Positions 8,646 through 45,381 of a DNA stretch of 64,000 nucleotides are shown here, one piece after another. The position numbers and the translations under genes are program-made. Every line of letters begins with the position of its first letter. Position 1 is the stretch's first letter. Below the pieces are notes generated by a model that saw nothing but the letters and a program-made list of their open reading frames with translations, was not told the DNA's origin and did no database searches. Origin of the DNA: Streptosporangium amethystogenes (GTDB taxonomy: Bacteria > Actinomycetota > Actinomycetes > Streptosporangiales > Streptosporangiaceae); the NCBI RefSeq assembly GCF_000721075.1, contig NZ_JOEQ01000005.1, positions 718,859 through 782,858 on the forward strand, written 5' to 3'.

Positions 8646-8706
8646 GTTCCGCATATAGAAACGCCGTTTCTGGTTGGACTATAGGGAGAGTGTCCCGGTT
8701 TGGGAA
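8646..8706 (-). promoter_or_regulatory. minus-strand promoter with 25-bp three-half-site element (copy B)
   Basis: Read on the minus strand: -35 TTCCCA (8701-8706), 17-base spacer, -10 TATAGT (8678-8683), then after 7 bases GAAAC-N3-GTTTC-N7-GGAAC (8646-8670). The element ends 10 bases before the GTG start of the nitrilase-fold gene. The operator position downstream of the -10 box fits repression by blocking transcription. Confidence 0.75.
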
Positions 8707-8721
8707 GCCTCGGGAACCTCA

Positions 8722-8775
8722 TTGACACGTAAAGACCCTCGCTCTAGCGTGGAACACCGTTCCGACTTGCGGAAC
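8722..8775 (+). promoter_or_regulatory. plus-strand promoter with 25-bp three-half-site element (copy C)
   Basis: TTGACA (8722-8727), 17-base spacer, TAGCGT (8745-8750), with GGAAC-N3-GTTCC-N7-GGAAC (8751-8775) starting at the very next base. It is divergent from copy B and drives the VOC and FAD oxidoreductase genes. All three half-sites match the consensus exactly. Confidence 0.8.
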
Positions 8776-8800
8776 TCGAAGAGAACGTGGAGGCGTCACC

Positions 8801-9643
8801 TTGCCGCTTGGAGCGATCGTCGAGGCTGTCATCACGTGCCGGAACGTCGAGGCATCGGTTGCCTTCCATACCGGGGCGTTCGACCTTGATGTCCTCGAAT
8901 GGAACGGTCCGGACGCGCTTCTCGGCGTCCGAGGTGTCGAGACCGGCAGGATACGGCTCACCCCCGCACCCCCGGACGTGGCCGAGGCGCCCGAGCCGCG
9001 CGTCTGGGACATCGGTCCCCGGCTCCTTGGTATGTACTCCAGGGACCTCGGGCGGACGACACAGATGATCGACGCCGCGGGCGGCCGGTCCCTGCCGCCC
9101 GTCACCTACCCCTACGGTTCCGCCTCCCTGACCGAGTGCGTGGCGCTCGGCAGCGACGGGGTCTGGTGGACGCTGCCGCATGCGGCTGCCGGCCATCGGC
9201 CGAGCCCCGCGTTGGAGGGAGATCCGGAGCGCCTCCACGGTGAGTTGCACACGGCCGTCGTCGTACCCGCCGACCACGATCAGGCGCTGCGCTTCTTCGT
9301 CGAGGGTGGGGGCCTGAACATCCTGTTCGCCGGGGAGATGAGCGGCGAACCGTTCGAGCGGCTGATCGGCATGCCGCCCGGCGCGGGCCTGCGGCTGACC
9401 TTCCTCGTCTCCGCGGACCATGCCCCCGCGCGTCTGGAGATCATGTCGTTCACCGGCGTCGACGCGGTGGACCTGTCGGACCGGCCGCTCGGGCTGCGCA
9501 GGGTGGTGTTCGCCGTCGAGGACCCCGCTTCCACGATCGCCGCGCTGGAGGCGTGCGGTGGTGTCCGCCTCGGTGAGCGTCTCGTACGCGGACCCGGTGG
9601 CCTGGAGGTGGAGTTGCGCGAACCCGCCGGGGCGGCGTCGTGA
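8801..9643 (+). CDS. VOC (glyoxalase/dioxygenase superfamily) protein, two modules
   Basis: 280 residues from TTG 8801, supported by GGAGG seven bases upstream. Two beta-alpha-beta-beta-beta modules are visible: residues about 1-130 (IVEAVITCRNVEASVAFHTGAFDLDVLEWNG) and about 145-275 (GELHTAVVVPADHDQALRFFVEGGGL, then LRRVVFAVEDPASTIAALEACGG). VOC proteins include extradiol dioxygenases, glyoxalases and epimerases that bind a divalent metal through His/Glu. A clear metal triad is not obvious here. The stop overlaps the start of the second FAD oxidoreductase (GTGA), so the two are co-translated, and the gene is directly under element copy C. Other VOC proteins in the island lie at 28008 and 43624. 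Confidence 0.75.
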   Translation: MPLGAIVEAVITCRNVEASVAFHTGAFDLDVLEWNGPDALLGVRGVETGRIRLTPAPPDVAEAPEPRVWDIGPRLLGMYSRDLGRTTQMIDAAGGRSLPPVTYPYGSASLTECVALGSDGVWWTLPHAAAGHRPSPALEGDPERLHGELHTAVVVPADHDQALRFFVEGGGLNILFAGEMSGEPFERLIGMPPGAGLRLTFLVSADHAPARLEIMSFTGVDAVDLSDRPLGLRRVVFAVEDPASTIAALEACGGVRLGERLVRGPGGLEVELREPAGAAS

Positions 9644-11118
9644 CGGCGGAATCTCTCGGCCGGTTCGATGTCGTGGTCGTCGGCGCCGGGGCCGCGGGGA
9701 TGTGCGTCGCCATCGAGGCCGCCTCGGCGGGCGCGAGTGTGCTCGTCGTCGAGAAGCAGTCCGAGGTGGGTGGCATGCTGCACATCGCCAATGGCGAGTT
9801 CAGCGGAGCGGGCACCCGCCGTCAGGCCGCGCACGGCATCGACGATACCCCCGAGCGCCACTTCGAGGACGTGATGAGGCTCTCCCACGGCAGGGCGGAC
9901 GAGGATCTCGTCTGGCGGACGGTGCGCGCGCAGGGGGACACGGTCGACTGGCTGGAGAGCCTCGATTTCGACTTCGACCCCGGCACCCCGGGCCTCGTGC
10001 ACGGGCACGAGGTCTACTCGGTGCCCCGTACGTACTGGGGGGTCGACCTCGGCAGGTCGCTGCTGCGGCTGCTGGGCCGCCGCTTCGAGGACGCCATCGA
10101 GGCGGGGGCGGTGCGCCTGCTGCTCGGCACCCGGATCCAGGGCGCGCTCACCGACGGCGGGCGGGTGACCGGCGTGACCGGAATCCGGCCCGACGGCGGC
10201 GAGATGGTCGCGCACGGCGACGCCGTCGTCCTGGCCACCGGCGGGTACGACGCCGATCCGAGCGTGCGCAACCGCTTCCTGCCCCCCGGGTGTGAGAACG
10301 CGCTGATCGCCTGCCTGGACCACGCGACCGGCGACGGCCTGACACTGGCCCTCACGCTCGGCGCCGATGTCAGCGCCGACGGGTTCTTCATCCCGGTGAT
10401 GGGGCTGATCCCCGACCCCGCCCGCAGTGGGTTCGCCGTCGACTACCGGGAGGCGTTCGTCCAGGTCGCCCCCGCCTACCGGACCCCGTACGAGATCTGG
10501 GTCAACCAGGACGGCAGACGCTTCGTCGCGGAGGACGGTGAGAGCCCCGAGCGCCGGGAAAGGGAGTTGCTGCGCCAGCCGGGGCTCGCGATGCACATCG
10601 TCTGGGACCGGTCGATCGCCGAGACCGCGGAGCCGCTCATCGGCAACGGCACCGGAGACTGGACGCGAGAGCGCATGCTCGCCGAATGCGAGGCCGGACG
10701 CTGGATCGTCGCCGCGGACTCTCTGCGGGACCTCGCGGAGCGACTCGGGGTGGACGCGGACGGTCTCATCGCGACGGTCGAACGGTACAACGTCGCGGTC
10801 CGGAGCGGGAACGACCCGGAGTACGGGCGCGTCGTCCTGCCCATGACCATCGGGACGCCGCCGTACTACGGGCTCACCTCCGTCGCAGCCTCCCTGCTCA
10901 GCCGGGACGGTGTGCGGGTGGACGGCGACCTCTCGGTGCTGAACCGCGCGGGCACCCCCATCACCGGTCTCTTCGCGGTGGGTGAGGTGCTCGGCAACAA
11001 CGTCTTCGCCGGCGACAACTATGTCGGAGGTATGAGCGTGACCCCGGCGATGACGCTCGGCCGCGAACTTGGCCGCGCGCTGGGAGCCGCTGCGGCGTCC
11101 CGCTCTATTTCGGACTGA
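9640..11118 (+). CDS. FAD-dependent oxidoreductase, paralogue of the 4185 gene
   Basis: 492 residues, GTG start within the GTGA overlap with the VOC gene. The FAD site (FDVVVVGAGAAGMCVAIEAA), GGMLHIANGEFSGAGTRRQAAHGID, VVLATGGYDADPSVRN and the C-terminal GEVLGNNVFAGDNYVGGMS mark the FAD_binding_2 family. It aligns along its length with the 4185 protein (shared GTRRQAxxGI, HGHExY and TYxG patterns). Dehydrogenation or ene-reduction of a cyclic ketone or an acid is the likely chemistry. Having one copy on each arm of the divergent pair at 8.6-8.8 kb suggests two sequential or parallel redox steps. Confidence 0.85.
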   Translation: MTAESLGRFDVVVVGAGAAGMCVAIEAASAGASVLVVEKQSEVGGMLHIANGEFSGAGTRRQAAHGIDDTPERHFEDVMRLSHGRADEDLVWRTVRAQGDTVDWLESLDFDFDPGTPGLVHGHEVYSVPRTYWGVDLGRSLLRLLGRRFEDAIEAGAVRLLLGTRIQGALTDGGRVTGVTGIRPDGGEMVAHGDAVVLATGGYDADPSVRNRFLPPGCENALIACLDHATGDGLTLALTLGADVSADGFFIPVMGLIPDPARSGFAVDYREAFVQVAPAYRTPYEIWVNQDGRRFVAEDGESPERRERELLRQPGLAMHIVWDRSIAETAEPLIGNGTGDWTRERMLAECEAGRWIVAADSLRDLAERLGVDADGLIATVERYNVAVRSGNDPEYGRVVLPMTIGTPPYYGLTSVAASLLSRDGVRVDGDLSVLNRAGTPITGLFAVGEVLGNNVFAGDNYVGGMSVTPAMTLGRELGRALGAAAASRSISD

Positions 11119-11134
11119 TTTCACTCATTTAAAC

Positions 11135-11206
11135 GTCAGACCAATACGTTGACAGCGAAGCACCCGCTTTCTAGGCTGCTGGTAACGCTGTTCCGCATAT
11201 CGGAAT
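11135..11206 (+). promoter_or_regulatory. promoter with GTCAGAC box and 25-bp element (copy D)
   Basis: GTCAGAC (11135-11141) lies seven bases before TTGACA (11149-11154); after a 17-base spacer comes TAGGCT (11172-11177), then GTAAC-N3-GTTCC-N7-GGAAT (11182-11206). The order is the same as at 35.9 kb: GTCAGAC box, -35, -10, three-half-site element. It drives the two substrate-binding proteins. Confidence 0.8.
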
Positions 11207-11241
11207 TCCCCGACCCCGGGCCTGAAACCATGAGGCTGCAC

Positions 11242-12474
11242 ATGCGTAAATCAAGTTTTCGATGGGTCGCTGCGGCGGCTGCTGGTGCATTGGTGCTCTC
11301 CGGCTGCGCGAGCAAGGAGGAACGCGCGGGTGTGTCGGAGAAGACCGGCGGCTCCGGCTGGAGCGCGGGGGCCGACACCATCAAGATCGGGCTCATCACC
11401 CCGATGACGGGTGCCTACTCCATCCTCGGCATCCTCCAGGAGAACTCGATCCGGGTGGAGATGGACCGGATCAACCAGGCCGGCGGCCTCGGGGGAGCCA
11501 AGCTGGAGCTCGTCATCCGGGACTCCGCGCTCGACCCGGGCAAGGCCGTTCAGGCGGCCAACGAGATGGTCGGCGACGAGCAGGTGAAAATGGTGGTCGG
11601 CCCCTCGCTCTCGGCGTTCTACAACGCCTCGAAGGCCATCTACGAGCAGAACAAGAAGCTCAACTGCCAACCCGGTGTCGGCACCGGTGACTTCGGCGTC
11701 CTGAAGTACGGATTCCGCTCCCAGGACCCCAACAACATCAGCGTCGAGAAGATGCTGGAATACCTGCAGACCCAGGACGTGAAGTCCATCGGGCTCGTCT
11801 ACGAGGCCGACGACACGGGCAAGGCGATGGACGGCTACATCAAGGAGATGGCGCCGAAGTACGGGCTCACCTACCTGAGCTATCAGGAGACCCGCCCCGA
11901 CGACCAGTCGCACCGGCCCTACCTCGACAAGCTCAAGGACGCCGGGGCGATCATGGTCTCCAGTAACGCCAGCGGAGCCAAGACGATGGCCGCGGCCGCC
12001 GAGGCGAACTACAAGGGCGTGATGGCCAGCACCTCGGGGCTGCAGAACGTCACCTTCCTCGACGCGGCCGGAGAACTCGCGATCGGCTCGGTCTTCGCCG
12101 CCGGGAACGTACAGTTCAACATTCGCGACAAGGCGACCTGGAAGGCCGGTTACCGCGCCCACGTCGAGGCGGTCGAGGCCAAGTACGGGCTGGTCGAGGG
12201 GCCGAAGTCCGGTGCGAAGATGCCCAAGGGCACGGCGATCGCGGCCGACTGTGTCACCGCGTTCGCGGCCGCGGCGGAGAGCGCCAAGTCGGTGGATCCG
12301 GACAAGCTGGCGACGGCGATGGCCGCGCTCGACATTCCCGACACCGAGACCCCGTCGGGCAACGCCATCAAGCCGGCGGACCACGAGTTCTACCACGTCG
12401 GCGACATCCACATCTACAAGTGGGACCGGGACGCCGACGGCTGGTTCATCACCGAGGTCACCCCCAAATCCTGA
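11242..12474 (+). CDS. branched-chain-type ABC substrate-binding lipoprotein 1
   Basis: About 410 residues from ATG 11242 (GAGG six bases upstream; ATG 11230 is also possible). A lipoprotein signal is clear: MRKSSFRW, a hydrophobic run, then LVLSGC. The mature part begins IKIGLITPMTGAYSILG and continues with VMVGPSLS-like and IGLVYEADDTGKAMDGY segments of the Peripla_BP_6/LivJ fold, which binds amino acids, aromatic acids, amides and other small molecules outside the membrane. It is followed 42 bases later by a close paralogue. No permease is encoded here; the only Liv-type permease genes in the window start at 36009 under a promoter of the same design. Confidence 0.88.
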   Translation: MRKSSFRWVAAAAAGALVLSGCASKEERAGVSEKTGGSGWSAGADTIKIGLITPMTGAYSILGILQENSIRVEMDRINQAGGLGGAKLELVIRDSALDPGKAVQAANEMVGDEQVKMVVGPSLSAFYNASKAIYEQNKKLNCQPGVGTGDFGVLKYGFRSQDPNNISVEKMLEYLQTQDVKSIGLVYEADDTGKAMDGYIKEMAPKYGLTYLSYQETRPDDQSHRPYLDKLKDAGAIMVSSNASGAKTMAAAAEANYKGVMASTSGLQNVTFLDAAGELAIGSVFAAGNVQFNIRDKATWKAGYRAHVEAVEAKYGLVEGPKSGAKMPKGTAIAADCVTAFAAAAESAKSVDPDKLATAMAALDIPDTETPSGNAIKPADHEFYHVGDIHIYKWDRDADGWFITEVTPKS

Positions 12475-12516: not shown

Positions 12517-13746
12517 ATGACCTTCTCCACCGGTCGTAAAATCACGGCACTCCTGGGCGCGGCCGTACTGTTGACCGCCTGTGCCGGCAAGGAGGAACGA
12601 GCCGGAGGCGCGCAGGTCTCCTCCGACGGAGGCTGGAACGTCGGCCGTCCGGTGGTGAAGGTCGGGCTGATCACCCCGATGACCGGTCCACTCGCCGTCG
12701 TCGGCATCTCACAGGAGAACTCGCTCAAGATCGAGGTCGACCGGCTCAACGCCGAGGGCGGGATCGGCGGGGCCAAGCTCGAACTGGTGACCCGCGACTC
12801 CGGCCTCGACCCGGCGAAGGCCGTACAGGCCGCCAACGAGTTCGCCGGCGACGAGAGCGTCGGGCTCGTCATCGGGCCGGCGCTCTCCGCCTTCTACAAC
12901 GCGGCCAAGGGCGGCTTCGAAAGCGGCAGGAAGGTCAACTGCCAGCCGATGGTCGCCACCGGCGACTTCAGCGGTCTTAAGTACGGCTTCCGCGCCCAGG
13001 ACCCGGTCAGCCTCGACGTCGAGAAGATGCTGGCCCACCTGAAGTCCCAGGGGGTCACCTCGATCGGGGTCGTGTACGAAGGGGACGACGCCGGCAAGGG
13101 GACCGCGGACGAGGTCAAGAGGCAGGCGGAGGCCGGTGGCCTCACCTGGAAGGGATTCGAGGCCACCCGGTCCGACGACCAGTCGCACCGCTCGTACGTC
13201 GACAAGCTCAAGGACGCCGGGGCGATCTGGATCTCCAACACCGCGAGCGGCGCCAAGACCATGGCGGCCGCGAGCGAGGCAGGTTACCAGGGGCTCATCG
13301 TCGGCGGGTCGGGGGCGCGCAACATCGCGTTCATCGAGGCGGCAGGCGACACCGCGGACGGCACGCTCTTCGCCGCCACCTACTACCCCTACCCGAGCCG
13401 CGACGACCGCGCCACCTGGAAGCCCGCCTACCGCAAGCACATCGAGGAGATCGAGAAGCGGTTCGGCAAGAACGTCGGCCCGAAGACCGGTGCCGAGTCG
13501 CCCAAGGCGGCCGAGATCTCCGCGGACTGCGTGCTCGCGTACACGCGGGCGGTCGAGCAGGCCCGCTCGCTTGATCCCGACGCCGTCGTCGCCGCCATCG
13601 ACAAGCTGGAGATCCCCGACACCGAGACCCCGTCCGGCAACTCCATCTCGCCGGAGAAGCACGAGTTCTTCGGCCTGGACGACGTCCACATCTACCAGTG
13701 GAAAAAGGACGACAAGGGCTGGACGACCGTCGAGACCAGTGGCTGA
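12517..13746 (+). CDS. branched-chain-type ABC substrate-binding lipoprotein 2
   Basis: 409 residues, ATG start. Signal peptide MTFSTGRKITALLGAAVLLTAC with lipobox LLTAC, then KEERAGG as in the first copy. VKVGLITPMTGPLAVVGISQENSLKIEVDRLN and SIGVVYEGDDAGKGTADEV align with the upstream protein over the full length, so the pair arose by tandem duplication. The ligand-facing segments differ (ASTSGLQNVTFLDAAG against VGGSGARNIAFIEAAG), which suggests related but distinct ligands feeding one permease. The alpha/beta-hydrolase gene follows after 12 bases. Confidence 0.88.
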   Translation: MTFSTGRKITALLGAAVLLTACAGKEERAGGAQVSSDGGWNVGRPVVKVGLITPMTGPLAVVGISQENSLKIEVDRLNAEGGIGGAKLELVTRDSGLDPAKAVQAANEFAGDESVGLVIGPALSAFYNAAKGGFESGRKVNCQPMVATGDFSGLKYGFRAQDPVSLDVEKMLAHLKSQGVTSIGVVYEGDDAGKGTADEVKRQAEAGGLTWKGFEATRSDDQSHRSYVDKLKDAGAIWISNTASGAKTMAAASEAGYQGLIVGGSGARNIAFIEAAGDTADGTLFAATYYPYPSRDDRATWKPAYRKHIEEIEKRFGKNVGPKTGAESPKAAEISADCVLAYTRAVEQARSLDPDAVVAAIDKLEIPDTETPSGNSISPEKHEFFGLDDVHIYQWKKDDKGWTTVETSG

Positions 13747-13758: not shown

Positions 13759-15414
13759 ATGGAGCGGCACTACGTCACCGTCGGCGACCGTCAGGTCCAC
13801 TACACAAGCGCGGGGCAGGGCCTGCCGATCGTTCTCCTGCACGCCTCGCCGGGCGATTACCGCCCGCTGCGCGGCCTGGTCGAGGAACTGGCCCGCTGGT
13901 TCACGGTGTACGCGCTGGACACCCCGGGGCACGGCGGGTCCGATCCGCTCCCGGTCGCGGAGCCGGCCATGGCCGACTACGGGGCCGCCCTCGGCGAGAC
14001 CCTGACCGCGCTCGGGCTGGAGCGGGTCCATCTGTACGGCACGCACACCGGCGCGAAGGTGGCGCTCGCGTTCGCCGTCGCGCAGCCCGGCCGGGTCGCC
14101 TCGCTCGTCCTCGACGGACTGGGGATCTCGACTCCCGAGGAGCGGGCCGACCAGCTCGCGAACTACCTTCCCCCCATCGCGCGGCGCGGCGACGGCACAC
14201 ACCTCGTCGAGGCATGGCACCGGGTGCGGAACATGTACCTGTTCTGGCCCTGGTACAACGAGAGGCCCGAGGCGAGGCTGGCCTCGGCGATGCCGTCCCC
14301 GGGGTACCTGCACGAGGTGACGACCGGCATGCTCGAAACCGGCGGGACCTACTCGCTCGCCTACCGCGCGGCGTTCGTCTGCGATCCGGCACCGCTGCTG
14401 GCCCGGCTCGCCGTACCGTCCCTCCTCTTCGCCTCGCCGGGTGACCCGCTCCACGCCCACCTGGACCGGCTCCCTGACCTGGGCACCCGGATCCGGGTCG
14501 AGGACCTCGCCGCGGGGAGCGACTCGCCGCAGGGGGTGGCGGCACGGGTACGTTCCCATGCTGCGGCCCACCCGGAGGGGGTGACCGGGGCGCCCGCACG
14601 GCCCGAGGTCCGAGCCGCGGGGACGCTGACCCGCCGCTACGTCAGCACCCGGCTGGGCCAGGTGCTGGTCCGCTGGACGGGGACGGGCACGGCGGGCAGG
14701 CCGCTGGTGGCGCTGCCTCCGGCACCCGCCTCCGGCCACGCGGTCGACGGGCTGCTGAGCCGGGCCGGGGAGCACCGGCCGGCCTTCGCCGTCGACCTGC
14801 CGGGAACCGGCGACTCCGACCTGAGGGGAAAGCTCACCGTCGACGCCGGGCAACTGGCCGAGGCCGTCCGGGACGTCCTCGAAGAGCTCGGCCTCGGAAC
14901 CGTCGACCTGTACGGCTCGGGAGCGGGTGGCACGATCGCGGCCGCCGTCGCCGAGCGGCACCCGGCACGCGTGCACGCGCTGGCGCTGGCCGCGCTGCCG
15001 GACCCCGAACGTCTTCCGGCGGAACTCGCCTCGGCGCGCACCCCGTCCCTGACGCCCGACGACCACGGCACGCACCTGCTGCGAGCCTGGCACCTGGTGA
15101 GGGACGGCGGACTGCGACCGGGGACGAGCCCGCCCTCCACCGGAGGAGACGGCGGCCGGCCGGATCTGGCGGTACTGGAACGCAGGGTCCTCGACATCGT
15201 CAAGGCGTGGCCCACCTACGGTTCGGTCTTCCGGGCCGCGGTGCTCGACGGAGTCGTCCGGCGGCTCGCCGCTCTCCGCACGCCGATCGTGGCCGCGGAC
15301 CCGATCTGGGACCCGTTCGTGGCCGACGCGGAGTTCACGCCGTCGCACTCCCCCCACGATGGGCGAGGCGGGCAGGCCGCTCTGCTGAAAGCCCTGGACG
15401 AGGCGGGAACGTGA
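13759..15414 (+). CDS. double alpha/beta-hydrolase-fold protein with unusual nucleophile elbows
   Basis: 551 residues made of two alpha/beta-hydrolase units: about 1-270 (VHYTSAGQGLPIVLLHASPGD, ALDTPGHGGSDPL) and about 290-545 (FAVDLPGTGDSDL). The nucleophile elbow, normally GxSxG, reads GTHTG at 94-98 in the first unit and GSGAG at 386-390 in the second, so no Ser, Cys or Asp is in the catalytic slot of either. Acidic loops remain (SPGDPLH; AADPIWDPF). It may be a non-hydrolytic member such as a lyase or binding protein. ATG with GGGAG upstream. It ends the transcript with the two binding proteins. Confidence 0.75.
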   Translation: MERHYVTVGDRQVHYTSAGQGLPIVLLHASPGDYRPLRGLVEELARWFTVYALDTPGHGGSDPLPVAEPAMADYGAALGETLTALGLERVHLYGTHTGAKVALAFAVAQPGRVASLVLDGLGISTPEERADQLANYLPPIARRGDGTHLVEAWHRVRNMYLFWPWYNERPEARLASAMPSPGYLHEVTTGMLETGGTYSLAYRAAFVCDPAPLLARLAVPSLLFASPGDPLHAHLDRLPDLGTRIRVEDLAAGSDSPQGVAARVRSHAAAHPEGVTGAPARPEVRAAGTLTRRYVSTRLGQVLVRWTGTGTAGRPLVALPPAPASGHAVDGLLSRAGEHRPAFAVDLPGTGDSDLRGKLTVDAGQLAEAVRDVLEELGLGTVDLYGSGAGGTIAAAVAERHPARVHALALAALPDPERLPAELASARTPSLTPDDHGTHLLRAWHLVRDGGLRPGTSPPSTGGDGGRPDLAVLERRVLDIVKAWPTYGSVFRAAVLDGVVRRLAALRTPIVAADPIWDPFVADAEFTPSHSPHDGRGGQAALLKALDEAGT

Positions 15415-33721: not shown

Positions 33722-33782
33722 GTACGGCCCGAAGCGCGACCCCGGGCAGGCGTCGCGCTCGCCGGGGGCTTCACAATCCATT

Positions 33783-35900: not shown

Positions 35901-35976
35901 GTCAGACCTATTGACAGTCGAACGACTCTGAGCCTATGTTTCCAAAACCCTGTTCCGTATACCGGAACGGTGTTAA
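35901..35976 (+). promoter_or_regulatory. promoter with GTCAGAC box and 25-bp element (copy G)
   Basis: GTCAGAC (35901-35907), TTGACA (35911-35916), 18-base spacer, TATGTT (35935-35940), then GTTCC-N7-GGAAC-N3-GTTAA (35952-35976). The element is inverted compared with most copies. It drives the Liv-type transporter genes, 33 bases before the ATG at 36009. Confidence 0.8.
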
Positions 35977-36008: not shown

Positions 36009-36878
36009 ATGAGCCCTGAGGCGATCATCGACGGCCTGTTCGCGGGTTCCGTCTACGCCCTTGTCGCCCTCGCCCTGGCCATCGTCTTCCAGCCGACCCG
36101 GATCATGAACTTCGCGCAAGGCGAGGCGGTGATCCTCGGTGCGGCCATCGCGTACCAGGTCGTCGCGCTGGAAAAGCTTGGCTGGGCCGTCGCCCTCGGC
36201 GTGACCATCGTGCTGGCCGCTGTCATGGGCCTGCTCATGGAACGCATGATCATGTTACCAGTCCGGATGTCGGGTTCGCGCTACGCGTGGATCATCGCGA
36301 CGCTGGCGGCGGCGTTGATCTTTCAAGCGTTGTTCAACCTCGGCTACTTCGACGTGGACGCCCTGCGGCCGGAGCCGGTGATAGCGGGTGACTTCCAGGT
36401 CGCCGGCATCACTGTGGGCTGGCAGGAGGCGTTGACGATCGTCGTGGCCCTCGCCGTGATGGCCTTCTACGACCTGTTTCTGCGGCGGTCGGTCTACGGC
36501 CGCGCGATCCGGGCGACCGCGCACAGCACCGAGACATCGGTCCTCATGGGGATCCCGGTGCAGCGCATCGTCGTGCTCTCGTTCGTGATCGGCACCGTCA
36601 TCACCGCGATCGCGGGCATGCTCGCGGCGCCGGTGCTCTTCGTGGCACCGGCGACCGGTCTGCTCTTCACCATCAAGGGCTTCACCGCCGCGGTGATCGG
36701 CGGAGTCGGGTCACCCAGAGGAGCACTTGCCGGCGGGATGATCGTCGGAATTCTCGACACCGTGGTTCGGAGCCTTGTCGGCGGCACCGTCGGTAACTTC
36801 GCCGTGTTCGCGGCTCTCGCGGTGATCCTCGTCGTATTCCCGTCTGGATTGTTCGGTAAGCCGATGGAGGCGCACTGA
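36009..36878 (+). CDS. branched-chain-type ABC permease (LivH family)
   Basis: 289 residues with about eight hydrophobic segments. IIDGLFAGSVYALVALALAIVFQPTRIMNFAQGEAVILGAA is the classic LivH opening (GxxYALxALGLxLxxG-x-xNFAxGE), and FTIKGFTAAVIGGVGSPRGALAGGMIVGIL the cytoplasmic loop that contacts the ATPases. It imports ligands delivered by LivJ-type binding proteins. AGAGGAG precedes the ATG. It overlaps the next gene by TGATG. The likely binding proteins are those at 11242 and 12517. Confidence 0.92.
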   Translation: MSPEAIIDGLFAGSVYALVALALAIVFQPTRIMNFAQGEAVILGAAIAYQVVALEKLGWAVALGVTIVLAAVMGLLMERMIMLPVRMSGSRYAWIIATLAAALIFQALFNLGYFDVDALRPEPVIAGDFQVAGITVGWQEALTIVVALAVMAFYDLFLRRSVYGRAIRATAHSTETSVLMGIPVQRIVVLSFVIGTVITAIAGMLAAPVLFVAPATGLLFTIKGFTAAVIGGVGSPRGALAGGMIVGILDTVVRSLVGGTVGNFAVFAALAVILVVFPSGLFGKPMEAH

Positions 36879-38767
36879 TGGCAACGGTGGACCCTACCCC
36901 CGCCAGGGCTGGTGACGTGGCGGCGAAGAGCGGCTCCCTATTCGATTCGGCGGCCTACCACCGCGTGCGGACCCTGGTCCTGGGCGCGCTCTCGGTCCTC
37001 GCCATCGCGGTACTGCTCATGTGGCCGGTCATCACTGACTACTACAGCTACAACGCTTCGTACTACAACGGCCTCGTCGCCTCGGCCGCGATCAGCGCGA
37101 TCCTGACGATCTCCCTGAACCTGTCGATGGGGTACGGCGGGATGCTGTCGATGATGCACTCCGGGATGCAGCTGGCAGGGGGCTACGCCGCCGGGTACCT
37201 CGTGGTCAAGGTGAGCGGTTCATGGCTGCTCGGCATCGTCGCGTCGGTGGCCGTCGGGACGCTCGTCGCGGTCCTGGTCCTGCTGGTCAGCCTGCGGGCG
37301 ACCTATCTCTACTTCGGCATGATCACGTTGGCGGCCAACCTGATCGTCATCGAGGTCGGACGTGAGTGGGAGTCCGTCACCGGCGGCATCGTCGGGGTCA
37401 GCGGTATCGCCCCCAAGCTGGGTGACGATGTCATGCCGAAGCAGTTCTTCTACTACGTGGTGCTCGCCTTCCTCGTCCTGGTGTACGTCCTGCAGCGCAA
37501 CCTGGTGCGCAGCGGCGTCGGCAGGGCCTCGATGGCCGTGCGCGAGTCCTCCGACACCGCCTCGGCGATGGGTATCTCGCCCGCCCGCGCCAAGCTCCTA
37601 CTCTTCGGGATCTCCGGTGGGGTGGCGGGGCTGTCCGGTGCCCTCTACGCGCTGCAGCTCGGGTTCATCAACCCCGACGTCGGCCTGCTCGACAACGGGA
37701 TCATCTTTTTCGTCGGCCTGTTCCTCGGCGGTATCTCCACCCTGATCGGGCCGGTGATCGGCGTCGCCCTCATCGCCATCCTCGTGGAGCTGATCAAAGA
37801 TCAGGCGCGCTATACGACGCTGGTCCTCGGCTGCCTGCTGCTGCTCGCCATGATGGTGATCCCGAGGGGTGTCGTGGGCACCTGGAAGGCATCTCGGGTG
37901 GGCCGCGACAAGCTGTCCGACCCGGACGACGAGGCACTGCCCGACCAGGTCCCCGACGTGGTCCCCGAGGTCCGCGACGTCCCCGCGGGGGTGGCCGCGC
38001 TCGAGGGCGTCGGCATCGTCAAACACTTCGGAGGCGTACACGCCCTCGACGGCGTCGATGTGCGGGTCATGCCGGGTACGGTTCACGGGATCATCGGGCC
38101 CAACGGGTCGGGGAAGTCCACCCTGGTCTCCTGCCTGACCCGCTACCACCAGATCGACAAGGGACAGGTGCTGGTGTTCGGTGAGGAGGCCCCGGCCGCC
38201 CCCCACCGCGTGGCGCACGCGGGGGTGACGCGGGTCTTTCAGGTCCCGCACCTCTTCGAACGGGTCAGCGTGCTCGACAACGTGCTCACGGGCATGCGGA
38301 TGAGGGAGACCTATTCCTGGTCCGGCGCCCTGTTGCGCTCGCCCTCCTACCGTCGTCAGGACCTTCAGGAGCGGGAGGAGGCCCGGCAACTGCTGGGTTT
38401 CGCGGGGCTCGCGTCGCGCGCCGACTGGCTCGCCTCGTCACTCTCACACGGCCAGAAGAGGCTGTTGGAAGTGGTCCGCGCGGTGGCCAGCCGGCCGAAG
38501 GTGCTCATCCTGGACGAGCCCGCCACCGGGCTGACGTCGAGTGAACTCGACGCGCTGGCACGGCTGTGCCGGGTGCTGCGCGAGCGAGGGCTCGCGGTCG
38601 TGCTCATCGAGCACAATGTCGACTTCGTGATGGGGCTCTGCGACGAGATCACGGTCCTGGAGAGCGGGAAGGTGATCGAACGCGGCAGCCCGGAGCGGGT
38701 GCGTGCCTCGGCGGCGGTGCTTGAGGCGTACCTCGGCCGTCCAGACCTGGTAGAGGAGACATCGTGA
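36878..38767 (+). CDS. fused LivM permease-LivG ATPase
   Basis: 629 residues. About 1-345 is a LivM-type permease (ISLNLSMGYGGMLSMMHSGMQLAGGYAAGYL; ATAMGISPARAKLLLFGISG-like segment). After an acidic, Pro/Val-rich linker (about 345-375) comes a full ATPase: GIIGPNGSGKSTLVSCL (Walker A, about 405), LSHGQKRLLEVVRAVA (signature) and VLILDEPATGLTSSE (Walker B), then VVLIEHNVDFVMGL (switch His). The two parts are usually separate genes; here there is one open frame with no internal start needed. Translationally coupled with the LivF gene by GTGA. Confidence 0.92.
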   Translation: MATVDPTPARAGDVAAKSGSLFDSAAYHRVRTLVLGALSVLAIAVLLMWPVITDYYSYNASYYNGLVASAAISAILTISLNLSMGYGGMLSMMHSGMQLAGGYAAGYLVVKVSGSWLLGIVASVAVGTLVAVLVLLVSLRATYLYFGMITLAANLIVIEVGREWESVTGGIVGVSGIAPKLGDDVMPKQFFYYVVLAFLVLVYVLQRNLVRSGVGRASMAVRESSDTASAMGISPARAKLLLFGISGGVAGLSGALYALQLGFINPDVGLLDNGIIFFVGLFLGGISTLIGPVIGVALIAILVELIKDQARYTTLVLGCLLLLAMMVIPRGVVGTWKASRVGRDKLSDPDDEALPDQVPDVVPEVRDVPAGVAALEGVGIVKHFGGVHALDGVDVRVMPGTVHGIIGPNGSGKSTLVSCLTRYHQIDKGQVLVFGEEAPAAPHRVAHAGVTRVFQVPHLFERVSVLDNVLTGMRMRETYSWSGALLRSPSYRRQDLQEREEARQLLGFAGLASRADWLASSLSHGQKRLLEVVRAVASRPKVLILDEPATGLTSSELDALARLCRVLRERGLAVVLIEHNVDFVMGLCDEITVLESGKVIERGSPERVRASAAVLEAYLGRPDLVEETS

Positions 38768-39501
38768 GCGGATTGCTGGAAGTGTCGGGTCTGGCCGCGG
38801 CGTACGGAGGCGTGCGCGCCCTCGACGGGCTCGACCTGCATGTTGACGAAGGAGAGTTCGTGGTGTTGCTCGGCCCCAACGGGGCCGGCAAGACGACCAC
38901 GATGAAGACGGTGTCCGGGCTGCTCAAGCCGGTGTCCGGGCAGATCCGGTTCGCGGGTGAGGATCTGACGAAGGTGCCCGCCTGGCGCCGTCCAGGCCTG
39001 GGGCTCGGACACGTGCCCGAGGGCCGGCAGATCTTCCCAGACCACACGGTCCTGGAGAATCTCGCCCTGGGTGGCTTTCCGACGCGACGGCGCCGGGCGG
39101 AGACGGAGCGCAGGCGCGACGAGATGCTGGAGATCTTCCCCCGGCTGGCCGAGCGGAGTTCGCAGCTCGCCGGCACGTTGTCCGGCGGGGAGGCCCAGAT
39201 GCTGGCGATCGCCCGCACGCTCATGGCGGCTCCCCGGCTTCTCATGCTCGACGAGCCGTCGCTCGGCCTGGCTCCGCTCAAGGTCGCCGAGTTGTTCGGT
39301 TACCTCAAGCGGCTGCACGACGAACGTGGCCTGACCATTCTGCTCGTGGAGCAGCAGGCCAGTACCGCCCTGCGGCTCGCCGACCGGGGCTACGTGCTGG
39401 AGCGCGGGCGGGTGGTGGTGGAGGGCGGCGCAGCCGAGCTGCGCGACGACCCTCGGGTCCAGGCCGCCTATCTCGGTCAGCTCCGTCAGGAAGCCGGCTG
39501 A
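38764..39501 (+). CDS. branched-chain-type ABC ATPase (LivF family)
   Basis: 245 residues, GTG start in the GTGA overlap. LLGPNGAGKTTTMKTVSGLL (Walker A, residues about 36-55), LGLGHVPEGRQIFPDHTVLENL (LivF hallmark), TLSGGEAQMLAIARTLM (signature), LLMLDEPSLGLAPL (Walker B). It pairs with the ATPase half of the fused protein to energise import. A hairpin follows the stop directly, so the transporter operon has three genes. Confidence 0.93.
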   Translation: MSGLLEVSGLAAAYGGVRALDGLDLHVDEGEFVVLLGPNGAGKTTTMKTVSGLLKPVSGQIRFAGEDLTKVPAWRRPGLGLGHVPEGRQIFPDHTVLENLALGGFPTRRRRAETERRRDEMLEIFPRLAERSSQLAGTLSGGEAQMLAIARTLMAAPRLLMLDEPSLGLAPLKVAELFGYLKRLHDERGLTILLVEQQASTALRLADRGYVLERGRVVVEGGAAELRDDPRVQAAYLGQLRQEAG

Positions 39502-40596: not shown

Positions 40597-41841
40597 CTAC
40601 ATGCCGTCGCCGTCCCAGCGGCCACGGGAACGGCTGCGGACCGGGATGCTGGAGATGATGGGAGCCGGAACGGGGTCGCCGGCCTTCCACATGCGTCCCT
40701 GACCCCAGTTGTGGGCGTTGCCGTCGGTGCGCTCGTCCGCGTGTTCGAGGGTGGCGGGGTCGGCGCCCCAGTCGGCCGAGGGCACGTCGTGGCTGTGGTC
40801 GTGACCGTGGTCGTGGTCGTGACTGTGGCCGTGGTCGCTGTGACCGCCCTGCAGCTGGGCGATGTCGATGGCCTTGGCGATGGCCACCAGGCTCGGGTCG
40901 ACGCCCTGGCCGTGCTGCACGTAGTCCGCGTCGTCGATGCCCTGGTCCTGCTGGAACCGGGTCGAGGCGGCGAGGTCGGCGAGGTCCTTCTCGCTGCGCC
41001 AGGTGGGGCCGGAGCCGAGGTCGTGCGAGGACTGCGACCAGCGCATCCGGCTGCCGCCCGGCCCGTAATTGACCGCTTCGCCACCCCAGCGGAGCCATTC
41101 CCGCTGGGTGTACCAGTTGACCAGCTCGCCGTCGGAGCGCAGCAGCCAGGTGGCGCCGCCCTCCATCGTGGTGAAGTGGCCGTGCTTGACGCGGGCCGGG
41201 CGGAAGAAGTAGGTGCCCAGGTCCAGGGTGCCGAAGTTGTACTCCATGTGGCCCTGGGTGGTGTAGGCCTCCTCGTAGCAGGGGTGGTGGGCCAGACGGT
41301 GGTCGGCCCAGCCCTCCTGCGCGTGCACCAGCCGGGTGTAGAAGCCGGTCACCGGGTCGACGTGCAGGTACTTGATGAACAGGCCGGGCATGGGGCCGGG
41401 GTTGGGCACCGCGTCGAAGGTCATGGCGTCACTGTCGATGACGATGACATCCTCGCGGGCGTTCTCCCAGCGGGGGTGGGCGAGGGAGTCGACGGAGTCG
41501 AAGCCGGCGTCACCGTACTCCCTGTAGTGCAGGATGCGGCTGCCCTCGGCGAAGGTGATCGCGTCGGTGGGCACGCCCTTGGGGGCGTAGACGTAGGCAC
41601 CCTTGCCGATCTCGCGGCCGCCGTACGTCATCGATCCGTCGAGCACGTAGTACTCGGTGTTGGCGTGGTGGATGCCCGGCCCTCGGCCCCAGTCCGTATG
41701 GAAATCGATCCGGAGGGAGGACGAACCGTCCTCCTCGTCCACCGACAGCCGTCGCTCGCTGGCCCGCCCCTCACCCTTCACGAGCTCGGCGCCGTGCCAT
41801 ACGTAGTCGTCTTCCTGGATCAGCTCGACATGGGGGCGCAC
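40597..41841 (-). CDS. bicupin protein with His/Asp-rich metal-binding segment
   Basis: 414 residues. Two cupin units: about 40-120 (IHHANTEYYVLDGSMTYGG, GAYVYAPKGVP) and about 185-265 (HHPCYEEAYTTQGHMEYN, LGTYFFRPARVKHGHFTTMEGG). H-x-x-x-E and H-G-H residues suggest metal sites in both. At about residues 333-351 there are nine His and five Asp in 19 residues (HSDHGHSHDHDHGHDHSHD), like UreE/HypB/ZnuA metal-loading tails. It may be a dioxygenase or isomerase that stores its own metal. It is directly under the promoter with element copy H. Confidence 0.75.
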   Translation of the reverse strand: MRPHVELIQEDDYVWHGAELVKGEGRASERRLSVDEEDGSSSLRIDFHTDWGRGPGIHHANTEYYVLDGSMTYGGREIGKGAYVYAPKGVPTDAITFAEGSRILHYREYGDAGFDSVDSLAHPRWENAREDVIVIDSDAMTFDAVPNPGPMPGLFIKYLHVDPVTGFYTRLVHAQEGWADHRLAHHPCYEEAYTTQGHMEYNFGTLDLGTYFFRPARVKHGHFTTMEGGATWLLRSDGELVNWYTQREWLRWGGEAVNYGPGGSRMRWSQSSHDLGSGPTWRSEKDLADLAASTRFQQDQGIDDADYVQHGQGVDPSLVAIAKAIDIAQLQGGHSDHGHSHDHDHGHDHSHDVPSADWGADPATLEHADERTDGNAHNWGQGRMWKAGDPVPAPIISSIPVRSRSRGRWDGDGM

Positions 41842-41870: not shown

Positions 41871-41935
41871 GTTCCGTCTCGCGGAACGGCGTTCCTGTAG
41901 TTGTGAGGGTAATTGTCTGAGGTATTGGCGGTCAA
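41871..41935 (-). promoter_or_regulatory. promoter with GTCTGAG box and 25-bp element (copy H)
   Basis: On the minus strand: TTGACC (41930-41935), 17-base spacer holding CTCAGAC, TTACCC (41907-41912), then GGAAC-N3-GTTCC-N7-GGAAC (41871-41895), with all three half-sites matching the consensus exactly. The -35 lies four bases from the stop codon of the acyl-CoA synthetase gene. Confidence 0.82.
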
Positions 41936-41938: not shown

Positions 41939-43507
41939 TCAGGCGTCGCCGGTGATGGGAGCCGACAGGTCGCGCTTGACGATCTTGCCTGCCGCGTTGC
42001 GCGGCAGCGTCGAGACGACCTTCCAGCGCTTGGGCACCTTGTAGCCCGCCAGGTTGGTACGGCAGTGGGCCTCGATCCCGGCGGGCACCCCGTCGGGGCC
42101 GATGGCCTGCTCGCCGGGAACGCCGCCACGGAGGACGAGGTAAGCCATGACCTCTTCGCCCCAGGTGTCGGAGGGGACCCCGACCACGGCCGCCTCGGCG
42201 ATCGTCTCGTGCGTGACCAGCACATCCTCGATCTCACGGGGATAGACGTTGACGCCGCCCGAGATGATCATGTCTTTCTTCCGGTCGACGATGTGGACGT
42301 AGCCCTCGTCGTCGAGGGTCACGATGTCGCCGCAGGTGAGAAAGCCGTCATCCGTCGTACACTCGGCCGTCGCCCCGGGGTCGTCGTGGTAACCGTTCAT
42401 CAGGAAGGGGGAGCGGCTGAACAGCTCGCCGGGCTGGTTCGGGCCGACCGGATTGCCCTCCGTGTCCAGGACCCGCAGCTCGGTCATGTACCAGGCGTGA
42501 CCGACCGAGCCGGGTTTGCGATGCTGGTCGGCCGGGCGCAGGTCGGTCACGATGCCCGCCTCGGTGGATCCATACAGCTCATGCACGCCACAGGCGGGAA
42601 ACGCGTCCATGACCCACTGCTTGAGCGGCCACGGCAGCGCGGCGGCGTTGAAATAGAGCGTGTCGAGGCTGGTCAGGTCCGCGGCCGCCAGAATTCTGTC
42701 GTCCAGTGCGCGGAGCATCTGCGCGTGTGTCGGCACGAGGAACGCGGACTGTGCGCGGTCCCGCCCGACGAGGTGCAGCAACGCCTCCGGATCCCACTTG
42801 CGGAGCATCGTGACCGTGCCTCCGGTATAAACCGGGGCATATCCAAAGGCGAACCCGGCGCCGTGATACATGGGCGCCACGGCCACCGACACCCGGCCGA
42901 CGCCGAGCCCCCATTCCATTGCCGAGCAGTAGAACGTCAAGGACCGGCTCCGGTGACTGATCAGCACCCCCTTGGGCCGTCCTGTCGTGCCCGAGGTGTA
43001 GGTGATGCAGAACGGATCGTGCTCGTCGACGCGTACGGCCGGGTCCACCGCCCGCGCCGCGGCGAGCGTGTCCTCGTACGGCAGGCCGGTCTGACCTCCG
43101 TCGATGGAGAGCGTGACCAGTCTCAGGTCCTCGACCGCGTCCCCCACCACCGAGGCGAGGGCGTCATCGAGGATGATCGCCCGCGCGCCCGAGTGTTCCA
43201 GGATGAACCGCGCCTCGCTCGCGGTGAGCCGCGGGTTGAGCGGCACCATCATCAGGCCCGCCTTCGCGATCCCGGCCGCGATCTCCGGGTATTCCAGCCG
43301 GTTTCCCAGCAGCACCGCGACGCACTGGCCGGTGGTGAGGCCCCGTCCGAGGAGCGAGTTGGCCAGACGGTTCGAGCGTTCGTCGAGGGCGGCGTAGCTG
43401 AGGGCGCGGTCGCCGTCGATGACCGCGGTCGCCCGTGGGGTGGCACGGGCGAACTCACGTACGCCACCCGCGATGGAGAGAGGCGCACCTCCACGATGGA
43501 CGGGCAT
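41939..43507 (-). CDS. AMP-forming acyl-CoA synthetase (ANL superfamily)
   Basis: 522 residues, full length. ITYTSGTTGRPKGVLISHR (P-loop, about residues 170-188), HELYGSTEAGIVTDL (adenine site), GFLTCGDIVTLDDEGYVHIVDRKKDMIISGGVNVYPREIE (hinge and A8 region) and the C-terminal PRNAAGKIVKRDL Lys motif are all present. It makes an acyl-AMP and then the CoA thioester of a carboxylic acid. It follows the VOC gene by 116 bases on the same strand. Likely the ATP-driven activation step of the island's pathway. Confidence 0.93.
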   Translation of the reverse strand: MPVHRGGAPLSIAGGVREFARATPRATAVIDGDRALSYAALDERSNRLANSLLGRGLTTGQCVAVLLGNRLEYPEIAAGIAKAGLMMVPLNPRLTASEARFILEHSGARAIILDDALASVVGDAVEDLRLVTLSIDGGQTGLPYEDTLAAARAVDPAVRVDEHDPFCITYTSGTTGRPKGVLISHRSRSLTFYCSAMEWGLGVGRVSVAVAPMYHGAGFAFGYAPVYTGGTVTMLRKWDPEALLHLVGRDRAQSAFLVPTHAQMLRALDDRILAAADLTSLDTLYFNAAALPWPLKQWVMDAFPACGVHELYGSTEAGIVTDLRPADQHRKPGSVGHAWYMTELRVLDTEGNPVGPNQPGELFSRSPFLMNGYHDDPGATAECTTDDGFLTCGDIVTLDDEGYVHIVDRKKDMIISGGVNVYPREIEDVLVTHETIAEAAVVGVPSDTWGEEVMAYLVLRGGVPGEQAIGPDGVPAGIEAHCRTNLAGYKVPKRWKVVSTLPRNAAGKIVKRDLSAPITGDA

Positions 43508-43623: not shown

Positions 43624-44595
43624 TCAGGCGCGTGGCTGCCAGAGGGTCACCGAGATGCCGTTCGGAGTGTCGGCGGTGGCCACGACGGCACGGCCGTGCA
43701 GCGGGTCGTCGGTCTCGATCGGGGTGCCGAGCACCCGGCCGCCGGTCCGGCGGACGCTCTCCAGCGCGGCCTCCAGGTCGTGGGTGCGGACCGACCAGCC
43801 GCTGTGGCCGAGCGAGCGGGCCGGCCGCTGGACGGCCCGGCGGTCCACCCGGTGCTCGCAGAGGGCCGACGTGACCTCGATCCGGGCGGTTTTCTCCCCG
43901 GCCAGGAACGCCAGACGCATCTTGGTACCCGCGGGCAGCCCGGCCACGGCGTCGAAACCGGGCGCGGAGAAGACGATGTCGTACCAGACCGCCATGCCCA
44001 GGCCATCGGGCCCCCAGAATCCGACCTCGGCGTCGGGGTCGGGGACGTGGCAGACGACCGAGGTCAACTCGGTGAACGACCGGGTGGGATCGGCGGCCCA
44101 CGCTTCGGTGCCGCGCACCGCGGCGGGCTGAACGAAGACCACGACCGTCCCGTCGGGGGCCGGGCACACGCCCTGGGTGACCTGCACCTCCCGCTCGCCG
44201 ACCGGGACGCCGTAGGTGGTGGGCGAGGTGGTCCACTCGCGGCCCATCCGGCCGAGTTCGGCGTGCGCGGCCTCGATGTCGCGGGCGTACATGTCGATCC
44301 CGACCAGCCCGACGTCGAGGTTGTGCGGCGGTTCGGCGGGCGCCGCCGGCTCCGGTACGCGCACCAGGTGGATCCGCCCGGTCCCGGCGTCCGCGGCGGC
44401 CAGCGCGACCACCTCGACGTCGGCGGAACCCGATCCCCACAGCGCGTCGGCGACGGCTGCCGGGACGACCCCCTCGGCGGCCACCTGATACCCCAGCTCG
44501 TCGCGGAAGAGATCCAGGTGCGGGCCGAACTCTGTGACGCCGACGATCGCGGCGGTGATGCCCTCGACCAGGGGCCGCCGTGTGTTGTCGATCAA
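43624..44595 (-). CDS. VOC family protein
   Basis: 323 residues from TTG 44595, supported by GAGAGG six bases upstream. ITAAIVGVTEFGPHLDLFRDELGYQV opens the first VOC unit and LDVGLVGIDMYARDIEAAHAELGRMG the second strand set; FTELTSVVCHVPDPDAEVGFW, WSVRTHDLEAALESVRRTGGRV and SVTLWQP form the second half. Metal ligands cannot be named. It is divergent from the DUF3598-like gene at 44734 and under element copy I, upstream of the acyl-CoA synthetase gene. Confidence 0.72.
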   Translation of the reverse strand: MIDNTRRPLVEGITAAIVGVTEFGPHLDLFRDELGYQVAAEGVVPAAVADALWGSGSADVEVVALAAADAGTGRIHLVRVPEPAAPAEPPHNLDVGLVGIDMYARDIEAAHAELGRMGREWTTSPTTYGVPVGEREVQVTQGVCPAPDGTVVVFVQPAAVRGTEAWAADPTRSFTELTSVVCHVPDPDAEVGFWGPDGLGMAVWYDIVFSAPGFDAVAGLPAGTKMRLAFLAGEKTARIEVTSALCEHRVDRRAVQRPARSLGHSGWSVRTHDLEAALESVRRTGGRVLGTPIETDDPLHGRAVVATADTPNGISVTLWQPRA

Positions 44596-44617: not shown

Positions 44618-44687
44618 GTTCCTAATATCGGAACACTGTTCCAATATGACAGCGATCACGCTAAGCTCGCCGCCTGCGGCCTGTCAA
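44618..44687 (-). promoter_or_regulatory. promoter with 25-bp element (copy I) between divergent genes
   Basis: Minus strand: TTGACA (44682-44687), 17-base spacer, TTAGCG (44659-44664), then GGAAC-N3-GTTCC-N7-GGAAC (44618-44642), an exact three-half-site match. The element may also affect the plus-strand gene at 44734, for which no clear promoter is seen. Confidence 0.8.
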
Positions 44688-44733
44688 CGGGCTCAGCCAT
44701 TACTCCATCATCACCTGTGACCAGGGAGAAACC

Positions 44734-45180
44734 ATGCGCGCAGCAGTTTCGGGGATGCCGATCATCAGTCGGCACGTCGGCGAGTGGCGGGGGGAGTACA
44801 TCCACCTCGACGCGGACGGAAAGATCGTCGACCGGCACGCGTCGCACCTGTACTGCCGGATTCCCGAGGACGGCTCGTACGACATCCTGCAGACCAACAC
44901 CTACACCTGGGCTGACGGGCGGCAGGAGGCGTTCGACTTCGGTGGGCGGCTCGTCGACGGCGTCTGCCACTTCGACACCGACCGGATCATCGGCGAGATG
45001 AGCCAGGTGGACGATCAGACGATGGTGCTCACCTGGTCGTACAAGAACGATCCGGACAACTACCTGTACGAGCTGATCCAGCTGTCCCGTGACGGCCTGC
45101 ACAAGTGCCGGACCTGGCAGTGGATGGATGGCGACCGCCTGGTCAAGCGCACCGTCATCAACGAGTCCAAGGTCGCCTGA
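44734..45180 (+). CDS. DUF3598-like calycin-fold protein, paralogue of the 5657 gene
   Basis: 148 residues; ATG with GGAGA six bases upstream. ISRHVGEWRGEYIHLDADGKIVDRHASHLYCR and the alternating strands YDILQTNTYTWADGRQE, TMVLTWSYKND, LHKCRTWQWMDGDRLVKRTVINES give the lipocalin-like pattern of its paralogue. Many Trp, Tyr and charged residues point inward-outward as in a ligand barrel. Function unknown. A short hairpin CTCCGG-TG-CCGGAG at 45223-45236 follows and could end the transcript. Confidence 0.65.
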   Translation: MRAAVSGMPIISRHVGEWRGEYIHLDADGKIVDRHASHLYCRIPEDGSYDILQTNTYTWADGRQEAFDFGGRLVDGVCHFDTDRIIGEMSQVDDQTMVLTWSYKNDPDNYLYELIQLSRDGLHKCRTWQWMDGDRLVKRTVINESKVA

Positions 45181-45285
45181 CCCTGTACCCCGGAGCCGGC
45201 CTCCTCTCTGGCCCGTGTCCCGCTCCGGTGCCGGAGTTCGCCGGGGTGCCACGCCGGCGGCGCTTTCGGGGATCGCGGACCATCT

Positions 45286-45298
45286 GAAACGGCGTTCC
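45286..45298. promoter_or_regulatory. 13-bp GAAAC-N3-GTTCC palindrome (short copy J)
   Basis: The inner palindrome without the third half-site, about 60 bases upstream of copy K. It could help a regulator form a loop or a longer array before the dipeptide-type transporter operon. Confidence 0.5.
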
Positions 45299-45340
45299 AA
45301 AAAATCCGCTTCACCTCTTCCGTGCCCCTTTCTCGATGGC

Positions 45341-45381
45341 TACTATTCCGTTCCAGGGAACATTGTTCCGTATAAAGGAAC
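45341..45381 (+). promoter_or_regulatory. promoter -10 and 25-bp element (copy K)
   Basis: TACTAT (45341-45346) is a -10 candidate with only a weak -35 (TTCCGT at 45318). GGAAC-N3-GTTCC-N7-GGAAC (45357-45381) is an exact match; an extra GTTCC half-site sits at 45350-45354. The element ends 28 bases before the ATG of the first permease gene. Confidence 0.72.

Follow-up and report, generated by a model that had tools for sequence, protein, structure and literature searches.

The locus described here raises the question of whether a short DNA element that recurs ahead of nine transcription units defines one dispersed regulon and, if so, which protein would read it. The window, i.e. the whole stretch of 64,000 nucleotides that was analysed (Streptosporangium amethystogenes, a soil actinomycete, contig NZ_JOEQ01000005.1, positions 718,859 to 782,858), contains nine copies of a 25-bp element made of three half-sites (boxes) and, among them, a gene for an IclR-family protein (iclR). 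The sites, their concentration, their conservation, their link to IclR and their placement relative to conserved promoter hexamers were computed. On these sequence comparisons, the nine sites are predicted, with a probability of about 0.85, to be operators that a single IclR-family repressor recognises, the product of the gene at 34195-35022 being the most likely one.

Sequence and spacing of the operators

The nine 25-mers of the form GRAAC-N3-GTTYC-N7-GRAAC reported in a first, sequence-only reading of the window are all present (Table 1), and those at 8751, 41871, 44618 and 45357 agree with GGAAC/GTTCC/GGAAC in 15 of 15 bases. The variant half-sites given in that reading are real, but the GTTAC of box 2 at 33783 has to be added to them. 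A match also exists at 35952, although this site reads better as four boxes (35944-35976) with a perfect centre, GTTCC-N7-GGAAC, and weak outer boxes on both sides. The operators at 8646 and 8751 form a divergent pair. In eight of the nine sites the palindrome is nearer to the promoter and box 3 nearer to the transcribed sequence, the ninth being the four-box site ahead of LivH.

In a logo of 36 sites (6 from the window and 30 from relatives) the half-site is GRAACR, and box 3 is GGAAC in 35 of them. No fourth half-site is conserved on either side in this logo, which does not bear out the earlier proposal that the third half-site places a second dimer. The fixed spacing of 3 and 7 bases did hold: over 13 x 16 pairs of spacer lengths, the window had 6 strict matches at (3,7) and a single one at any other pair. 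The corresponding counts were 30 and 2 in the 376 kb surrounding close IclR relatives, 17 and 6 in 400 kb around further relatives, and 4 and 2 in 390 kb around distant relatives.

Two palindromes that are not followed by a third box, GAAACATTGTTTC and GAAACGGCGTTCC, are found in the window at 3320-3332 and 45286-45298; the former is at the called 5' end of an open reading frame (ORF, 3291..4169) and the latter lies 58 bp before operator 9.

Concentration of the sites in the genome

The strict pattern has 8 matches in the 9.44-Mb genome (6 in the window and 2 on contig C34), and its backward control pattern has 0. When mismatches were allowed, some of the match rows being one place read in two registers, 19 rows with at most one mismatch were obtained from the whole genome, in three clusters only: the window (9), C5:654-680 kb on the same contig (6) and C34 (4). 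With at most two mismatches there were 78 rows versus 17 for the control. In the window itself, 20 matches with at most three mismatches were counted versus a mean of 6.03 in shuffled sequence, and none of 100 shuffles reached 20. The outcome of this genome-wide scan, which the sequence-only reading had proposed, is that matches cluster in this region and are not equally frequent elsewhere.

A matrix trained exclusively on 34 distinct site sequences from relatives gave the nine window sites 10.8-41.9 bits. The best score away from these nine places was 8.3 (at 3308), and the background maximum was 6.9 across the 211,680 positions of the own genome that were scored. Rows with two mismatches are scattered across the genome, as a chance clustering of a degenerate pattern would allow; this explanation is nevertheless rejected, and its probability is considered negligible, because the shuffles, the genome counts, the spacing scan and the relatives-only matrix are all contrary to it and conserved sites are found in orthologous promoters.

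The sites of contig C34 (C34:10931-13187), partly doubled, lie beside two ATP-binding cassette (ABC) exporter genes, a major facilitator superfamily gene and an ORF with no Pfam match. No regulator was recognised near them among the 6 proteins scanned and the ORFs listed.

Conservation in related genomes

Conservation counts cover the fetched stretches of the relatives' genomes, and the matrix that scored the relatives' upstream regions includes the window sites, so that these scores are not independent of them. A scan of named genomes yielded five relatives; those named are Microtetraspora, which was checked to be in the Streptosporangiaceae, and Microbispora and Sphaerimonospora, which belong to the same family.

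Every one of the nine sites has counterparts in front of the corresponding gene in three or more relatives from the Streptosporangiaceae; the three-box operators are conserved in orthologous promoters, which is consistent with the earlier proposal that the nine would form one regulon. A counterpart was found in 6 of the 6 relatives' loci with the gene for each member of the divergent pair (CN-hydrolase and VOC1 sites) and for the VOC3 site (44618), in 6 of 6 relatives for the DUF4437 site (reversed, with a poor third box, in L124), in 4 of 6 for the SnoaL site and in 3 of 5 for the DppB site (45357). The binding-protein site at 11182 keeps both of its deviations (GTAAC...GGAAT) in 5 of 6 relatives, as an identical 25-mer in L112 and also in L108, L121, L122 and L125; L118 has none. 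Upstream of LivH, the highest scores reached in five relatives were 25.2, 18.7, 10.3, 8.9 and 2.5. The iclR site, whose GTTAC variant is likewise conserved, is near-invariant in 8 close relatives, also present in L152 and absent from L127.

Association of the sites with the IclR protein

The protein encoded at 34195 carries an IclR helix-turn-helix domain (PF09339, E 2.8e-11, 43.5 bits for a cut-off of 22) and a C-terminal effector domain (PF01614, E 4.2e-39). It is, in silico, the best candidate for the binder, in agreement with the sequence-only reading, having an operator ahead of its own transcription unit as most of its closer homologues do. Upstream regions of 600 bp were scored for 49 of 50 IclR homologues (one at the edge of L147, its start cut off, was left out), using a matrix of 30 of the 34 relatives' sites, the four GTTAC (iclR-proximal) ones being excluded; the null was given by 2000 random 610-bp stretches (99th percentile 10.4, maximum 10.8). 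Scores above 11 were reached by 18 of the 21 homologues that are 56-100% identical, a set that includes the window protein itself, by 10 of 11 in the group of a paralogue described below, and by 4 of 17 more distant homologues.

Among 200 genomes drawn from the larger family, strict sites occur in 24, an IclR homologue (E<=1e-40) in 39 and both in 18 (hypergeometric 2e-10, kinship ignored), 12-14 candidates per genome having been scored in the protein homologue searches. Of the 73 strict matches in these genomes, 47 share a contig with an IclR homologue that is at most 40 kb away (at most 10 kb for 22 of them); the backward control pattern has 3 matches there. In 10 further genomes of the window's genus no IclR match exceeds 67% identity, whereas values of up to 82% occur in other genera of the family, and the distribution of the cluster is patchy.

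The GntR/FCD protein encoded in the cluster at 26166-26942 was considered as another binder. Homologues of it occur in 17 of the 200 genomes, 10 of these being among the 24 that have strict sites, the gene is preceded by a site in three relatives, and it too is linked to the cluster, lying further out from the sites in G016 and G067. This candidate is disfavoured, and judged very improbable, because 8 genomes with sites and IclR (G044, G058, G078, G088, G096, G123, G188 and G199) are without it at E<=1e-40 and none has GntR without IclR, all 10 site-bearing genomes with GntR also carrying IclR. G096 and G188 have a close window-type IclR. The motif, moreover, agrees with the IclR consensus, and GntR/FCD proteins bind a different kind of site.

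A paralogous IclR gene amid further three-box sites

A second IclR gene (C5:678504), whose product is 56% identical to that of the window, is located about 75 kb upstream on the same contig among three-box sites of its own. Six of these have one mismatch to the strict pattern; C5:640-719 kb contains 0 strict matches at (3,7) and 3 elsewhere, all (3,7) sites there carrying at least one mismatch. Side by side with these sites, the neighbouring catabolic cluster C5:654699-681437 encodes an oligopeptide ABC transporter, a CN-hydrolase, aldehyde dehydrogenases, a flavin reductase, an acyl-coenzyme A (CoA)-dehydrogenase-like oxidase and its own IclR, and the third box of its sites is GAAAC or GTAAC.

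That this paralogue, or both IclR proteins together, would bind the nine window sites is suggested by the identical spacings and by the nearly identical recognition helices (SKAAVHRILASLR vs TKAAVHRILTALR). Against it, box 3 has G as its second base in 44 of 45 window-type sites versus 6 of 25 in the paralogue group (A 12, T 7), in counts that include related genomes and are thus not independent, and G directly follows box 2 in 28 of 45 versus 2 of 25. L131 was counted in the window-type group, since its protein gave the better match to the IclR of the window. Furthermore, G061, G084, G096, G188 and G197 have strict sites and a window-type protein, with no paralogue-type protein among the matches at E<=1e-40. 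Binding by the paralogue, or by both proteins, is accordingly given a low probability.

A more specific idea, speculative though somewhat less remote, is that the two paralogous repressors, about 75 kb apart, run separate three-box regulons that are distinguished mainly by the third half-site (GGAAC vs GAAAC/GTAAC). Box 3 would then be a specificity element, and a dimer seated on the palindrome might re-pair with the downstream box, or recruit a subunit to it, locking the initiating polymerase.

Predicted promoters and operator placement

Transcription starts are predicted, +1 being set by the rule that places it seven bases past the -10 hexamer. Relative to these starts the operators span -22 to +34, and eight of nine are downstream of the -10 (Table 1). 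In the promoters that could be aligned (CN-hydrolase, VOC1, iclR, DUF4437 and VOC3) the -35 and -10 hexamers are conserved at a near-fixed distance to the operator, except at VOC1 of L122; the VOC1 promoter is kept in the 6 others of 7 (in one with TAGCTT). The -10 of iclR is TACTGT in 9 of 10 aligned loci and TACGGT in the tenth. Box 2 of this operator reads GTTAC because the -10 lies inside the operator and is formed by the variant box.

The classical IclR proteins with three-box sites, PcaU and PobR, act as activators, and the operators of the window could be activator sites of the same kind. Since they are found at -22 to +34 and mostly downstream of the -10, which is a place for a repressor, a repressor is favoured and activation appears improbable.

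The promoters at 29513-29542 and 41906-41935, 12 kb apart, have the run ATACCTCAGACAATTA in common besides TTGACC, as if one promoter were a copy of the other or an additional factor bound there.

Table 1. Operators, predicted promoters and proposed regulator gene in the window (genes preceded by each operator are given with their coordinates).
Feature	Position	Strand	Description
Operator 1	8646..8670	-	GAAAC-N3-GTTTC-N7-GGAAC, strict match; precedes CN-hydrolase 7586..8728 (-), then aldehyde dehydrogenase 6109..7572 (-)
Operator 2	8751..8775	+	Consensus at all 15 bases; precedes VOC-fold gene (VOC1) 8801..9643 (+) and flavin adenine dinucleotide (FAD) oxidoreductase 9640..11118 (+)
Operator 3	11182..11206	+	GTAAC...GGAAT variant, 2 mismatches; before two Peripla_BP_6 binding-protein genes, 11149..12474 (start uncertain) and 12517..13746, and alpha/beta hydrolase 13759..15414
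Operator 4	29476..29500	-	Strict match; precedes SnoaL-like 29010..29447 (-), VOC 28008..28940 (-), SDR 27304..28110 (-)
Operator 5	33783..33807	+	GTTAC as box 2; upstream of iclR
Operator 6	35944..35976	.	Four boxes, outer ones weak; precedes LivH 36009..36878, LivMG 36878..38767, LivF 38764..39501
Operator 7	41871..41895	-	Strict match; precedes DUF4437/cupin gene 40597..41841 (-)
Operator 8	44618..44642	-	Strict match; precedes VOC gene (VOC3) 43624..44595 (-), CoA ligase 41939..43507 (-)
Operator 9	45357..45381	+	Strict match; precedes oligopeptide-type ABC operon 45410..50847, CN-hydrolase 50844..51869
Predicted promoter, CN-hydrolase	8678..8706	-	TTCCCA-N17-TATAGT; operator +2..+26; TATAGT in 7/7 aligned promoters
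Predicted promoter, VOC1	8722..8750	+	TTGACA-N17-TAGCGT, abuts operator 2; operator -6..+19
Predicted promoter, binding proteins	11149..11177	+	TTGACA-N17-TAGGCT; operator -2..+23
Predicted promoter, SnoaL-like gene	29513..29542	-	TTGACC-N18-TATCCT; operator +7..+31
Predicted promoter, iclR	33770..33798	+	TTCACA-N17-TACTGT, overlaps operator; operator -22..+3
Predicted promoter, LivH	35911..35940	+	TTGACA-N18-TATGTT; operator -3..+30
Predicted promoter, DUF4437 gene	41906..41935	-	TTGACC-N18-TACCCT; operator +5..+29
Predicted promoter, VOC3	44658..44687	-	TTGACA-N18-TAGCGT; operator +10..+34; kept in 7/7 aligned promoters
Possible -10, operator 9 ABC operon (DppB)	45341-45346		TACTAT
iclR	34195..35022	+	HTH_IclR + IclR_C, 275 aa; proposed regulator of the nine sites

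Weight of the evidence

Several observations count against the assignment of the nine sites to the IclR protein at 34195, or against parts of it. The C34 sites have the same form, and no IclR match was found on that contig among the 150 of 594 candidates scored. Two homologues, in L127 (72%) and L149 (62%), are without an upstream site (scores 0.2 and 1.6), and the upstream score in L150, 10.8, is not above the random maximum. Six of the 24 strict-site genomes have no IclR at E<=1e-40 (one match each), and 26 of the 73 strict matches have no IclR homologue at a distance of 40 kb or less; 9 of these 26 come from further contigs of the G061 and G084 assemblies, which are fragmented. The paralogous IclR (C5:678504) might bind the nine window sites as well.

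As regards the promoters, the pattern TTGACM-N17/18-TANNNT, which has 6 matches in 64 kb versus 0.09 expected, all six directly before operators, was picked after the promoters had been seen. DppB has a weak -35, and four sites of the GntR/PrpD1 operon in relatives, L126:12551, L118:19854 and VOC1 of L122 yielded no good pair of hexamers.

Genes of the cluster

Genes were called by a simple script based on GC3 (G + C at third codon positions), and start codons, e.g. those of 7586..8728 and 11149..12474, are uncertain. The claim that the sites join transport, oxidation and CoA steps over 37 kb into one unit stands in part. Genes for transport, amide hydrolysis, oxidation and CoA ligation do carry sites; the operon 16561-25680 (-), which encodes MaoC, luciferase-like, CoA transferase, PrpD, L-PSP, thiolase and acyl-CoA dehydrogenase proteins, has no operator in this genome, and sites precede it in 4 of the 4 relatives examined.

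Encoded in the cluster are two ABC importers, one of branched-chain type with two binding proteins and one of oligopeptide type, together with CN-hydrolases, a CoA ligase, CoA transferases and enzymes of beta-oxidation type. Given these importers, CN-hydrolases and CoA enzymes, the cluster likely imports some carboxylate or amide and breaks it down via CoA. Pfam, NCBIfam and PDB searches of its proteins returned enzyme families and no substrate.

Beside iclR, the second CoA-transferase gene, at 33098-33604 (-), is internally shortened and probably dead: compared with its homologue in Microtetraspora (L109), approximately residues 45-268 are missing. In the cyclase and PrpD-like genes next to it, most of the family profile is still matched. 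A small frame between the operator and iclR is conserved in relatives (116 aa, L109:9620-9970) and is broken into short frames in the window (33852-34165, +). Considering the site missing at 16561-25680 and the shortened CoA-transferase, the pathway in this genome may be partly rewired or decaying.

Proposed mechanism and its interest

Binding by the IclR protein at 34195, repression, the ligand and the occupancy of the boxes are predictions. Each operator would consist of three alternating GRAACR half-sites, with spacers of 3 and 7 bases, over the start of a sigma-70-type promoter, where the simplest mechanism is that bound IclR blocks RNA polymerase. A carboxylate, an amide or a CoA-pathway ligand would release it, and this release would induce the two ABC importers, amide hydrolases, oxidoreductases and CoA ligase together; the operator at iclR would let the gene regulate itself. 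Most likely a single dimer would occupy the palindrome, together with another subunit or with an alternative pairing that uses box 3.

Such a regulon would tie VOC, DUF4437, CN-hydrolase and PrpD-like genes to one catabolic pathway, and the paralogue in the same genome would offer a natural contrast set for learning the role of box 3.

Comparison with known systems

The regulon itself appears to be new, no paper on it having been found in the literature searched, and the strings "streptosporangi" and "nonomuraea" are absent from the main text of a 2021 survey of IclR motifs by Suvorova and Gelfand (PMC8222616), whose site lists are in supplements. The operator type is already known, having been predicted in that survey.

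PcaU, PobR and HmgR are named in the text of the survey as earlier three-box cases (PMC8222616). Their operators are like those described here in combining a palindrome with an external direct repeat of the half-site, and the binding of PcaU requires the third box (PMC8222616). They differ in half-site sequence (TTTGTTCGAT... for PcaU), and the operators of the window sit over the predicted transcription start. The window protein scores below the curated cut-off of the PcaR/PcaU/PobR subfamily model (TIGR02431, 120.6 bits for a cut-off of 284.75). As regards an activator role in the beta-ketoadipate pathway, the domain tables of the 49 window proteins contain no intradiol dioxygenase domain. 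The KdgR operators given in the survey (RWWGAAACGNCGTTTCAKKA, PMC8222616) have the same GAAAC-N3-GTTTC palindrome, but their consensus is without a third box; the NCBIfam models for KdgR (120.3, cut-off 275) and BhcR (168.4, cut-off 350) likewise score the protein below their cut-offs. PheR of Sphingobium (PMC13273656), an IclR protein that represses uptake and catabolism, has a footprint reaching from -21 to +23 relative to the start, i.e. covering the same promoter region as the operators here, whereas its substrate and its core sequence (GCAACG) are unrelated and the footprint is described at one promoter.

The closest counterpart is provided by the survey itself (PMC8222616), the main text of which distinguishes two groups of IclR motifs with oppositely arranged half-sites: group 1, GTTYC-N7-GRAAC ("GTT-11-AAC"), and group 2, TGRAACA-N-TGTTYCA with a spacer of 3. 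Three-box sites that combine both groups are predicted there (32 orthologous groups, 199 proteins), with one dimer using alternative pairs of boxes as the published alternative to two dimers. The operators of the window agree with them in sequence, in spacings and in having three boxes of alternating direction: GRAAC-N3-GTTYC is the group 2 pair, GTTYC-N7-GRAAC the group 1 pair, and the middle box is common to both. The window provides a clean, conserved set of nine promoters on which the question of the survey, i.e. the two dimer pairings on three boxes, is testable.

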